From Candidatus Poribacteria bacterium (GTDB lineage Bacteria; Poribacteria; WGA-4E; WGA-3G): DNA of 33,648 nt. Location of the stretch: the NCBI GenBank assembly GCA_022825665.1, contig JAJDWI010000138.1:1-33648 (forward strand), in the 5' to 3' direction. A program made the position numbers and the translations under genes. A model generated the notes under the pieces. It saw only the letters and a program-made list of their open reading frames with translations. It did not search any database and had not been told where the DNA came from. Below, piece by piece: positions 16,358 through 28,051 of this stretch; within the stretch, counting starts at the first letter, position 1; each line of letters begins with the position of its first letter.

Positions 16358-19300
16358 TTATTTATTCAGTTTTTTCCATTCTTTTTCAAGATTGCATTTA
16401 GATTTTTTCCCACCGTGGATACTTGGTTCGGCACATAACAGTTCGCGGAGACGGTGTATAGCGTTGTGTGCATCTTCGGTTGTTATATCTAATACCTCAT
16501 TTAGCAAACGACGATCCAGTTCGTGACGTACTGGATCGTTATCTGACTCATTAAATGGTAACATCCGCTGATGTTTCAAATCGTGGAAAATCTGTTCTGC
16601 GTTTGCCAAGGCTTTATCAGATAAGCACCGCACATCCAGTGTAGGCATTTGGAGTAAAGATGTTCTTGAATTTGCCCCTCTGCCCGGTTGTTGTTTTCCA
16701 CTATGTGCCCAATGTAGCATGAGTCCTAAAGTAGTATTTCCCCAGAGCGTCCAGACGTAATCGAAAATAGGTTTTTCAAAAACAAGGTTTGGAATTGAAC
16801 TTATTCCAAGAACAGATTCTTCAGTAAATAGAACACTGATGGAATTAGCATTGAATCTATGCATCAAGTTAAAATGTACACGTCCACTACGTGCAAGAAT
16901 CATCTGTGCTTTTTCATGTCGATTGGGACGAGGAATGAGATGACAATCGGGTTGTACAACCATAGTCCTTTGTGCTGGTGCGTTTAGATGCCATAACCCA
17001 GGATAGAGATCAGTATCCGTATAACTCTCTTCTATATCAAATGCCCCTCGTTTTCCTTTCTCAAAAATATCACGATGGCTTGCACTAATTTTTGCAATAT
17101 CGTTAACTAAACAGATAGGAATTTCAATAGGAGCTGCTTGTGTTGGTAGCCACATCTCTCCGTTAGCTAAACGGTGTGCGGACTGGATTAAAGCCATCTC
17201 CTTAATCCGAACTGAATCCCACGTGCTGTCTATCTGTAGGGGACAGTTGAGTGCATGTCCAAAAATGTCATCGCCAACCTTGATGGGTTCACCACCACTT
17301 GGGGCATCTTCAAGTTGTCGTAAGTTATCAATCTTGTATGTAAACTTGGCTATTTCAAACGCTTCTAAAACACTCCTTGGTCGATGACTCAGAGATATGA
17401 ACGTGCCTCGCCCTGTATTATCATTTTCTTTTCCCTTGGATGCTATTACCATGCACTCTGCCATATTGGTATCCGCGGAGAACGCGCAGTCTTCAGCCTT
17501 GGCATCCGCTATGGTAATCACAACAACGTCGTGGTATTCAGTCGCCCACATGTTTCGGACTTTCTGCCAGTCTGAGACGGCGAGACATGTAATAGGCAAA
17601 ATGAATCCCATTCTACTCTTCCCGTTTTCCTTTAACATTTTATCTGCGAGGTCAACAAAATCAGAAGCGAGTCCAGCGTTTCCGTTTCCGACTCGCCACT
17701 TTTTTCGTTTGCGTGCTTTCCGCATCGCTTGTTCTTCCAATTTGCCCCTGCTGCTTCCTTTGAATACGGCTTTAGGTGTACCACTGCTTGCATCGGAATC
17801 TGGTCTGGTAAACGGTGGATTTAAGACGACAATATCAAATTCTTTATGGTGAAATTCCTTTTGTGGAATTACTGTCGCGTCGTCATCTCCACCGACTTGT
17901 TGGAATTCTGTACCCATCATTGGAAGGGGAAACTTTCCTTCAGGACCATCATACAGATCAAGCGAACCAAGGGCATAGCTACTATCTGTTTGTCTACCGT
18001 AAGGCATTGTATAGATTCGGGTATTCCCGATTTTCAAGTCTGGATAGGTGCTTGTTAACAACGATGCAGTCAAGTGGCTTGCATTCGGCATAATGTCACA
18101 TCCAACAAGATTATTTTCTATCATCTTAGTGTGAATAGGGCTGCCCTTGTTGTCTGTTTGTTCATATAGTTCAATGATACGTTGGTATACACCGTTGAGA
18201 AGCGAACCTGTTCCACATGCAAAATCAGCGACCTTTAATTCGCTTACATTTTCTTGGGTTTTTGGCAGAACTAATGCAGACAACAAGGAAACGGATTCAA
18301 GACGTGTGTAGTTTGCTTTAATATATTTTCTGTCAACAATGAGACGTTGAAATACAGTACCAGCGAGTTCGTGTACCTGTGTGAGTCGTTGGTCAACGAG
18401 TTCCCTGGCTGCTTTACAGAGAATTGCCAGGACCCTATCAATTAGTTCGTCGTCAGTTGCAATTGCCTCAATAAGTCTTTTTGCAACATAGAAAATTGGA
18501 CGATAATTTACCTTGAGAATAATGTTCCATCCTGCAATCACTTGATCATAGCGTAGACGTTTGGAGTTGTCGGATAACATCCGTTTGAGGGAAAGTACTT
18601 TCTTCATTTCAGATTTACCTGCAAGTGCGCTCTGAAAAACAAATGCGTTGGTGATAATAAGCATTGCCATTCGTGAAGTTTGTTCACCAATTTTTTGAAA
18701 GAGGATCCCTTCGATTTCCGTTCCGATACCTGGTCGAATTGAAATTGCAGCTTCAAGTTGTTTTGCGGCAATTTCTATCCGTGCTTCTAATAGGTCAGCG
18801 GCAGCATTGATTTTAGATATTGGCGTTGCCCCGACGCGAATAGCGGTTGCTATATCAGCTACACTGCCATTTAACCAACCACTTTTTGGGAAACTATCAA
18901 ATTCTGGTTCACTCTCAAGTTCAGTTTCTTCTGCTTCATTGATAAATAGGTCCCAATCAGGGTGCGGTTCAATTTCTGTTTCCGGTTTGTTGATAAGCAT
19001 ATAAGCGATGTCTTCTGCATTTCGCATTTCAATGTCAATGTTCTCTTGTGGCATCGTTTTGAATCGCGCAGGCATGCGGATGCGTAGGACATTCTCAACG
19101 GTATTGTAAGTGAGTCCTGAGAAAAGGTTGGGATTAAGTTCACTTCCGATATGTGCCTTTGCTTGTGTAATGCCCGAAAAGTTCGGTGTTTTACCGTCTA
19201 TTTTTACCTCAATGACAATTGGGTTTCGTCCCGTCTCGGTAACAATCACATCAGGTTTTGTTGACGCATTTAGGAATGGTTTTGTAATTTGTTCATTGAC

Positions 19301-19372
19301 AGTCCAAGCATCCCGCATGTTACGTAGGACATTTACAAAGGCACTGGTGATGGTGTTTTCACTGTTTGGCAT
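16358..19372 (-). CDS. Single-chain restriction nuclease/N6-adenine methyltransferase (type IIG-like)
   Basis: This is a 1004-residue protein. Near the N-terminus, P-D41 followed by E55-V-K57 forms a PD-(D/E)xK nuclease signature (EVK in PIVIEVKI). A helical connector spans about 160-360. The methyltransferase core has motif I DFACGTGSLLNG (383-394) and motif IV N518-P-P-F, the gamma-type order of adenine-N6 enzymes. The remaining 340 residues or so are probably target recognition. This order (nuclease, linker, methylase, recognition) is that of type IIG/IIL enzymes such as MmeI, which cut and modify with one chain. A standalone modification enzyme with a decayed nuclease is possible. The recognition site is unknown. 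Confidence 0.83.
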   Translation of the reverse strand: MPNSENTITSAFVNVLRNMRDAWTVNEQITKPFLNASTKPDVIVTETGRNPIVIEVKIDGKTPNFSGITQAKAHIGSELNPNLFSGLTYNTVENVLRIRMPARFKTMPQENIDIEMRNAEDIAYMLINKPETEIEPHPDWDLFINEAEETELESEPEFDSFPKSGWLNGSVADIATAIRVGATPISKINAAADLLEARIEIAAKQLEAAISIRPGIGTEIEGILFQKIGEQTSRMAMLIITNAFVFQSALAGKSEMKKVLSLKRMLSDNSKRLRYDQVIAGWNIILKVNYRPIFYVAKRLIEAIATDDELIDRVLAILCKAARELVDQRLTQVHELAGTVFQRLIVDRKYIKANYTRLESVSLLSALVLPKTQENVSELKVADFACGTGSLLNGVYQRIIELYEQTDNKGSPIHTKMIENNLVGCDIMPNASHLTASLLTSTYPDLKIGNTRIYTMPYGRQTDSSYALGSLDLYDGPEGKFPLPMMGTEFQQVGGDDDATVIPQKEFHHKEFDIVVLNPPFTRPDSDASSGTPKAVFKGSSRGKLEEQAMRKARKRKKWRVGNGNAGLASDFVDLADKMLKENGKSRMGFILPITCLAVSDWQKVRNMWATEYHDVVVITIADAKAEDCAFSADTNMAECMVIASKGKENDNTGRGTFISLSHRPRSVLEAFEIAKFTYKIDNLRQLEDAPSGGEPIKVGDDIFGHALNCPLQIDSTWDSVRIKEMALIQSAHRLANGEMWLPTQAAPIEIPICLVNDIAKISASHRDIFEKGKRGAFDIEESYTDTDLYPGLWHLNAPAQRTMVVQPDCHLIPRPNRHEKAQMILARSGRVHFNLMHRFNANSISVLFTEESVLGISSIPNLVFEKPIFDYVWTLWGNTTLGLMLHWAHSGKQQPGRGANSRTSLLQMPTLDVRCLSDKALANAEQIFHDLKHQRMLPFNESDNDPVRHELDRRLLNEVLDITTEDAHNAIHRLRELLCAEPSIHGGKKSKCNLEKEWKKLNK

Positions 19373-20295: not shown

Positions 20296-20559
20296 TCATG
20301 AAAAAAACCGTGTATATTCATCGTGATTTCCTATCCAGAACCATGTAACTGTATCTTTCTCTAAAGTGCCAACAGCACGGTAACCTTGTGTGATACGTAC
20401 AGACCAAATATTTTCTTTATTATTAATACACTTGAAACGCAAAGAATTATGAAAGGGATTAGACATCCATAATCTATAAGCTTTTTTTACTTGATTTTTT
20501 AGTGTGTTATCAAGATTCTGATAAGCTGTCCAAAAAGATGGTAATGTCGCAGATTTCAT
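20296..20559 (-). CDS. RelE/ParE-type toxin
   Basis: This is an 87-residue protein with the compact RelE-like pattern: an N-terminal helix pair (FWTAYQNLDNTLKNQVKKAY) and then the beta-sheet segments WSVRITQGYRAVGTL and WFWIGNHDEYTRFF. RelE-family toxins cleave mRNA, usually at the ribosome; ParE relatives poison gyrase. RITQGYRAVG and the terminal HDEYTRF resemble the RNase-type members. Its ATG overlaps the antitoxin stop (ATGA), as expected for a coupled antitoxin-toxin pair. Confidence 0.8.
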   Translation of the reverse strand: MKSATLPSFWTAYQNLDNTLKNQVKKAYRLWMSNPFHNSLRFKCINNKENIWSVRITQGYRAVGTLEKDTVTWFWIGNHDEYTRFFS

Positions 20560-27407: not shown

Positions 27408-27489
27408 CCTTAAATTCATTGTGATAATCACGTAAACTGAGTTATTAGGTGAAGTAATTTGAATGTCTCGCGTTGAATATTAACATCTT

Positions 27490-27529
27490 CCGTCAAATCC
27501 CCATGCTTTAGCTTGTGGGATGTAGACGG
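27490..27529 (+). mobile_element. IS200/IS605-like left-end hairpin
   Basis: An inner hairpin at 27499-27519 has CCC/GGG at its base with one bulged T, a short stem and a TTTA loop. An outer CCGTC/GACGG pairing (27490-27494 with 27525-27529) encloses it. The same design recurs at 27841-27861. Subterminal hairpins with a bulged T are what TnpA of IS200/IS605 elements binds. No transposase gene is present. Confidence 0.6.
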
Positions 27530-27552
27530 CTAAGGGTGTTATAAAAATATAT

Positions 27553-27581
27553 TTGACAATCTAATCAATCTATGGTATCAT
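27553..27581 (+). promoter_or_regulatory. Strong extended -10 promoter of the element's RNA
   Basis: TTGACA, a 17-nt spacer and TATCAT, with TG one base upstream of the -10 (TGGTATCAT). This is the best promoter match in the window. Initiation is expected near 27588, just before the structured RNA. Confidence 0.72.
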
Positions 27582-27840
27582 ATATGCAGCATCTTTGGAT
27601 AGGATTTCTACCTCAGCACTAACCCGTGCTGAGTCCTATCTCCAACCGTAGAAAGTTGTGTGGTGCTGGTGCGAAATCACTATAAAAGTATAAGGAATGC
27701 ACGCGACCGATACGAGATGTAAGAACCCGATCAACTGTTTGTGCATTCCACCAATTCTTATAAAACGGGCAGGCTTAGCTGCCTAAAGTGGAGCAGATGT
27801 AAGACGTAGCTCAGATCAGCTATCCGCGAGGAAGCACAAG

Positions 27841-27861
27841 CCCCTACCTTTAGGTAGTGGG
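27841..27861 (+). mobile_element. IS200/IS605-like right-end hairpin
   Basis: CCCCTACC, a TTTA loop and GGTAGTGGG form an 8-bp stem with one bulged T in the 3' arm. It has the same loop and bulge as the hairpin at 27499-27519. In TnpB elements the guide segment begins just after this hairpin, here in the sequence from about 27862. Confidence 0.62.
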
Positions 27862-27918
27862 TACTATGACTCAGTGATGGGTAGATATGGCAATATCTTG
27901 AAAGCGTTAATAAGAATC

Positions 27919-28025: not shown

Positions 28026-28051
28026 GTGCGGTTAGGAAACCGCACCTACCG
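28026..28051. repeat. REP-like palindrome
   Basis: GTGCGGTT and AACCGCAC form a perfect 8-bp stem with loop AGGA, followed by CTACCG. It belongs to the same stem-plus-CTAC design as the repeats at 13066, 32065 and 32125. Confidence 0.6.

Follow-up and report, generated by a model that had tools for sequence, protein, structure and literature searches.

The window analysed in this work is a stretch of DNA of 33,648 nucleotides that forms contig C52 of the genome (G000; 4.5 Mb in 170 contigs) of a member of Candidatus Poribacteria, a sponge symbiont. Our analyses have identified in this window, in a position between genes, a mobile element of the IS200/IS605 type that is 387 bp long (27484..27870, + strand) and lacks open reading frames. 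The element is bounded by a left-end hairpin (27499..27519, +; CCCCATGC-TTTA-GCTTGTGGG), which is near-identical in ~15 left-end copies, and by a right-end hairpin with a bulged T (27841..27861, +; CCCCTACC-TTTA-GGTAGTGGG). An earlier note on this DNA had described two hairpins with the loop TTTA and a single bulged T, and we find them at these positions and also within the predicted fold of 27490-27870 (-114.5 kcal/mol, below 100/100 shuffled sequences, z -3.3); the bulge is present as described, but the left hairpin has in addition a T.T mismatch in its upper stem. Imperfect subterminal hairpins at both ends are a feature of IS200/IS605 elements. As had also been noted, the hairpins enclose no ORF, none of 80 aa or more being found between them, and a Y1 transposase TnpA is hence not encoded here. 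Because no TnpA ORF lies inside, the element can only be classed as a non-autonomous IS200/IS605 derivative.

The limits of the element are provided by an empty orthologous site in locus L265 (Candidatus Poribacteria jk18x7bins.36), which belongs to a close relative in which a neighbouring dehydrogenase subunit is 97% identical. The window reads TTAA-[27484...27870]-TCAGTGATGGG and L265 reads TTAA|TCAGTGATGGG, beginning TTAA|TCAGTG; the uninterrupted site of L265 is GTATATTAA|TCAGTGATGGGTAG, given also as GTATATTAA|TCAGTGATGGGTAGATATGG. From this empty site it follows that the element measures 387 bp and was inserted 3' of a short target without duplicating it, as IS200/IS605 elements do. The exact ends of the element are thus 27484 and 27870. 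The target flank TTAA (27480..27483, +), which is TAM-like and is kept at the empty site, is the left flank in 12/13 class-1 insertions identified by pattern matching. On the other side of the element, the host flank that would act as a guide (27871..27890, +; TCAGTGATGGGTAGATATGG) equals the empty-site sequence beside TTAA in L265.

DNA searches of G000 have identified a second full-length copy of the element on contig C94 (93%) and about 35 further end matches (~15 left-end and ~25 right-end), nearly all of which are located at contig ends, the places at which an assembly breaks at repeats. The flanks of the copies in this genome diverge outward from one same base, right ends stopping at ...GGGTACTATGAC and left ends starting after TTAA. 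Full-length cassettes are also present in other species, and some copies are decayed (e.g. L140 and L213). An automatic score applied to the RNA-bearing loci that lie away from contig edges (n=101) placed both TTTA-type hairpins above threshold in 39, one in 35 more and none in 27, so that linkage of the two hairpins recurs among the homologues. The search for further copies and empty sites that the earlier note had recommended has therefore been productive, and its proposal of a mobile non-coding RNA cassette is supported by the L265 empty site, the C94 copy and the cassettes of other species, neither of the two outcomes that it had named as refuting having been obtained. Its suggestion of a tnpA with the same hairpins gave a different outcome: only 2 tnpA genes were found in G000, and the ends of the one examined (C159) are different. 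Against these 2 tnpA genes stand 28 tnpB-domain matches in the same genome, many of them at contig ends, and its class-1 tnpB copies are cut by contig ends; this scarcity of suitable partners in G000 itself weighs against the reading favoured below. A weak match at C107:24985 was rejected as a copy of the RNA, since reading it revealed no sign of the RNA.

The 5' half of the cassette contains a pseudoknotted RNA core of 95 nt (27587..27681, +) that was delineated by covariation, folding and model search. This core consists of the helices P1 (27587-27593/27662-27668), P2 (27597-27604/27634-27641), P3 (27612-27619/27626-27633), P4 (27643-27646/27655-27658), and P5 (27669-27671/27678-27680) and of a pseudoknot (27605-27611/27648-27654), all on the + strand. 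In a MAFFT alignment of 15 core sequences that was made without reference to structure (A1), 98.2% of the cells pair, 17/37 pairs exhibit two-sided changes, and 0/500 shuffles are as high on 4/5 measures. In an alignment of 66 distinct sequences (A2), which, unlike A1, was fitted to the structure model, 97.1% of the cells are paired and two-sided changes are found in 34/37 pairs, again with 0/500 shuffles as high; sliding the partners in this alignment lowers pairing to ~40%. The pseudoknot, though absent from the covariance model, pairs in 98% of the cells and exhibits two-sided changes in 6/7 pairs, its strands being UUUCUAC/GUAGAAA in the window and UUAUCAC/GUGAUAA, UUUUCAC/GUGAAAA, or UUUCCAC/GUGGAAA elsewhere. 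Folding of single core sequences yields the same nested helices. The structured RNA that had been reported between the hairpins thus has a core supported by covariation. Downstream of it, a second hairpin domain (27694..27749, +; GGAATGCAC/GTGCATTCC) is predicted by folding and found in the cassettes; its sequence differs between classes, and its two arms, compared by eye, change together.

No relevant Rfam family matches this leader RNA in the window or in 12 diverged loci at either gathering or permissive thresholds, and no HEARO, group I intron, ribozyme, or riboswitch is detected at the Rfam gathering score. With a second covariance model the leader is found in 50/59 genomes of its own family, and covariance-model searches identify it in 0/26 genomes from the rest of the phylum and in 0/291 genomes of another phylum, the latter result indicating that the false-positive rate of the model is low. 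A strict-pattern scan of viral contigs likewise gave no copies. In the open papers that treat Poribacteria together with IS605/TnpB or non-coding RNA the RNA is not described, and a description in other papers may have been missed. The leader is an RNA family that Rfam lacks and for which covariation provides strong support. That the RNA of the 5' half is absent from Rfam, and that it is present beyond the element, had escaped the earlier note.

A promoter had also been reported between the hairpins, and it is indeed present as a well-phased sigma-70-like sequence, TTGACA-17-TATCAT (27553..27581, +). A TTGACA/TATAAT-like promoter lies upstream of nearly all leader copies (mean 10.4/12 matches vs. 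8.0 shuffled), and in 85/104 copies its -10 box ends 5-6 nt upstream of P1; on account of this phasing, the RNA should start with the first strand of P1. This strand (GCAUC, 27589-27593) has a second possible partner, GGUGC (27668..27672, +), in addition to its partner in P1. Two tandem partners of this kind, viz. the P1 3' strand and the P5 5' strand, are present in 84/105 distinct copies, compared with 30 when strands are shuffled among copies and 24 when the tail is shuffled, which suggests that the 5' strand may exchange between them. The predicted transcript would begin with the leader at 27587 and continue into the tnpB 3' end and the omegaRNA scaffold (27759-27870).

The 3' half of the cassette, whose nature had likewise been missed before, consists of the 3' end of tnpB and the omegaRNA scaffold of a TnpB family that has the same ends. 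The parent tnpB is represented by its final codons (RAGLAA stop; 27766..27786, +), close to where the right-end homology begins (~27759), and these are followed by the scaffold and right end (27788..27870, +), which are common to tnpB-bearing elements and whose helices covary. A sister species (L314) possesses an intact tnpB element whose two ends are those of the cassette; the class-1 TnpB of this element has 370 aa and ends in ...NAAINIEQAGLAA (C-terminus ...DRDINAAINIEQAGLAA), and the homology of the window to L314 resumes at the last codons of tnpB (27759 on) and continues to the right end. Taken over 23 cassettes together with 6 tnpB elements, pairing in the scaffold stem and the end hairpin reaches 96.5%, and 9/13 pairs exhibit two-sided changes. 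In other cassettes the retained C-terminal tail is that of a second TnpB family (..NACGVQVRP.EARETEARK), and a full tnpB behind the leader RNA was found in none of the cassettes searched. In view of this homology and of the retained tails, the cassettes are tnpB elements in which the gene has been replaced and the omegaRNA end kept, and they derive from at least two TnpB families. In ISDra2, the reRNA or omegaRNA is made up of the tnpB 3' end, the right end and ~16 nt of flank that act as the guide, and the TAM is the left target site (PMC8612924). The cassette resembles it in that its scaffold is derived from the 3' end of tnpB together with the right end and that its 3' flank is the target sequence beside a TAM-like left flank, as the L265 empty site reveals; by analogy, the flank 27871-27890 would serve as the guide. 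It differs from ISDra2 in having no tnpB in cis, so that TnpB must come from elsewhere, and in possessing its own 5' leader from a separate RNA family.

The reading that we favour, with a probability of about 0.6, is that the cassette is a non-autonomous IS200/IS605 derivative of a tnpB element, with a 5'-leader module in place of almost the whole tnpB frame, and that it depends on TnpA and TnpB supplied in trans. The sequence itself shows where the element ends and that it was once inserted, how the RNA is paired and the promoter phased to it, the homology of the scaffold, the guide-target match at the empty site, and the free copies of the leader; transcription, movement by TnpA and use by TnpB in trans, and a function of the leader are inferred. 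A single transcript would be started at ~27587 by the internal promoter; the pseudoknotted leader would fold first and the omegaRNA scaffold next, and the guide would come from read-through into the flank. The DNA of the cassette would be moved by TnpA supplied in trans, and TnpB from an intact relative would use the omegaRNA of the cassette to cleave the donor site next to TTAA once the element has left it, whereupon repair would restore the element and lead to its retention. The leader itself would be a separable module that heads the omegaRNA transcripts of several TnpB families as well as the mRNAs of other genes, and, placed at the extreme 5' end of the transcript, it would most likely regulate or stabilise that transcript, possibly through exchange of the partners of its 5' strand. 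A regulatory or stabilising 5' leader is the most economical reading of this RNA.

Copies of the leader that lack IS605 hairpins are located 20-240 nt upstream of ORFs, and the leader is thus predicted to head the transcripts of other genes as well, a further point that was missed before. The genes behind these free copies include two for CBASS cyclases (one of them then followed by an S-4TM effector) and two for type II methyltransferases, as well as genes for a GajA/AriA-like ATPase, an FRG protein, and an HsdR-N-like protein and ParE-like toxin operons; genes for lipoproteins, a DUF805 protein, and unknowns are also found, and no metabolic theme is common to them. PADLOC matches at 1e-4 or better are obtained for 7/19 first ORFs behind free copies, against ~10/83 control ORFs among the matches listed (Fisher p ~0.016, the test having been chosen after the genes were seen), which suggests a modest association of the free copies with defence genes. 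A broader proposal, that a lineage-specific switching leader, with its pseudoknot and two partners competing for the strand at which transcription starts, controls defence genes and guide RNAs and has repeatedly been captured by TnpB transposons to give gene-free cassettes served by TnpB in trans, can be advanced only tentatively, and we hold it to be a good deal less probable than its negation.

Several individual loci bearing the leader deserve description. In L217 (486-2537, -), the leader RNA, a CD-NTase and an S-4TM effector are arranged in series and form a CBASS operon headed by the leader. Locus L258 contains two leaders (1735-1831, -, and 2511-2606, +), one of which lies before a CBASS-like cyclase and the other before a type II methyltransferase. 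In L189 and L211, which are from two species, the leader and a class-2 scaffold, without IS605 hairpins, lie ahead of the same lipoprotein gene at a shared position, and this is possibly a retained, domesticated copy. The sequence ACGGAAT[A/T]AGTCGTTTTGGACTT, with a hairpin AAGTC/GACTT in L203, is found upstream of the leader in L203 and L205 and is perhaps the end of another element.

The placement of free copies directly 5' of varied genes, together with the strict 5' position of the RNA, its pseudoknot, and the two mutually exclusive partners of the 5' strand in most copies, is what would be expected if the core were a ligand-sensing riboswitch in which switching of the 5' strand between its partners determines how much of the omegaRNA or gene behind it is expressed. 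The conserved positions of the core are, however, nearly all paired, and since few conserved unpaired bases remain, a classical ligand pocket is not favoured. Inspection by eye also revealed no conserved terminator or element sequestering a Shine-Dalgarno sequence, and the downstream genes share no metabolic theme. We consider a riboswitch rather unlikely on these grounds.

In terms of its DNA the element is a PATE and belongs to a known kind, as it is too short for a transposase, has palindromes near its ends and lacks a target duplication. The PATEs of Haloquadratum are transposase-free IS605 derivatives with near-terminal palindromes and without inverted terminal repeats or target duplication, and some of them retain the C-terminal coding end of the transposase gene (PMC3119063). 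Their likeness to the cassette in these respects, and the existence of many copies, some of them decayed (L140 and L213), would agree with a degenerate IS605 derivative that lost its interior, but not its ends, by deletion and whose central RNA is incidental cargo with no role in the element. A promoter-driven structured RNA is not mentioned in the passages of their description considered here (PMC3119063), whereas the cassette has an RNA domain conserved by covariation in the place of the gene. Compensatory change maintains the RNA structure in dozens of diverged copies, in which the promoter phasing is kept as well; scaffolds from different TnpB families are found joined to this one RNA, and a new structured domain does not arise by internal deletion. 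The covariation already refutes in part the notion of functionless cargo, which we regard as distinctly unlikely.

Leader and scaffold stay together in the cassettes and no full tnpB was found with the leader, from which it might be supposed that the whole RNA of 27587-27870 is the complete omegaRNA of an unrecognised nuclease that serves both cassettes and free copies. This is very unlikely, as tnpB-bearing elements share the scaffold alone, free copies are leaders without a scaffold, and no protein regularly accompanies the RNA. The least probable alternative, to which we give very little credence, is a ribozyme that would cleave itself and so trim the omegaRNA or mRNA at its 5' end: ribozymes do occur in mobile elements, and the order of P2, pseudoknot strand, and P3 recalls HDV-like nesting, but no computed result favours a ribozyme, no Rfam ribozyme is matched, the pseudoknot strand is enclosed by a 4-bp stem, and an HDV-like ribozyme specifically was rejected because the base before the pseudoknot 3' strand, at the place of the active cytosine, is variable (C, A, or U) and P3 is long (7-8 bp, not 3).

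In terms of its RNA, the cassette combines the known omegaRNA kind with a leader family for which no description was found in open papers, although one published elsewhere may have been missed. Its nearest precedent is RAGATH-18, a covarying orphan RNA that was later tied to TnpB near defence genes and proved to be the reRNA of IS607 TnpB; 64% of its copies adjoin TnpB and the others do not (PMC11061315). In RAGATH-18 the orphan RNA is the scaffold, whereas here it is a 5' leader that is also found before unrelated genes, and no match to RAGATH-18 was obtained with Rfam. Stand-alone, trans-acting omegaRNAs of IscB, reportedly described by Altae-Tran in 2021, are similar to the cassette in that the guide-RNA locus is away from the nuclease gene; IscB guides lie at the 5' end and belong to the HEARO RNA, to which the cassette has no match. 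IStrons, which are IS605 or IS607 elements fused with group I introns, also contain a structured RNA within an IS605-type element, but the cassette has no Rfam match to group I introns, possesses an internal promoter, and in the present copy lies between genes. Both HEARO and a group I intron or IStron were rejected for want of any match. These results suggest that TnpB transposons may shed the nuclease gene and yet retain a promoter-driven guide RNA, a parasite-of-a-parasite arrangement, and gene-free cassettes are a possible source of stand-alone guide RNAs. The leader family is in addition common in sponge-symbiont Poribacteria, with copies 5' of CBASS, methyltransferase, and other conflict genes.

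Some further features of the window may be recorded. A gene with a ParE-like toxin domain is located at 20296-20559 (-), and the same domain is found behind the free leader of L190. The protein of 1004 aa encoded at 16358-19372 (-) contains an Eco57I-type methylase domain and is probably a restriction-modification protein. Beyond the element, a short palindromic repeat at 28026-28050 (GTGCGGTTAGGAAACCGCACCTACC) lies in a stretch unlike that of the relative L265 and recurs exactly in the unrelated Poribacteria loci L010, L029, L245, L294, and L326.
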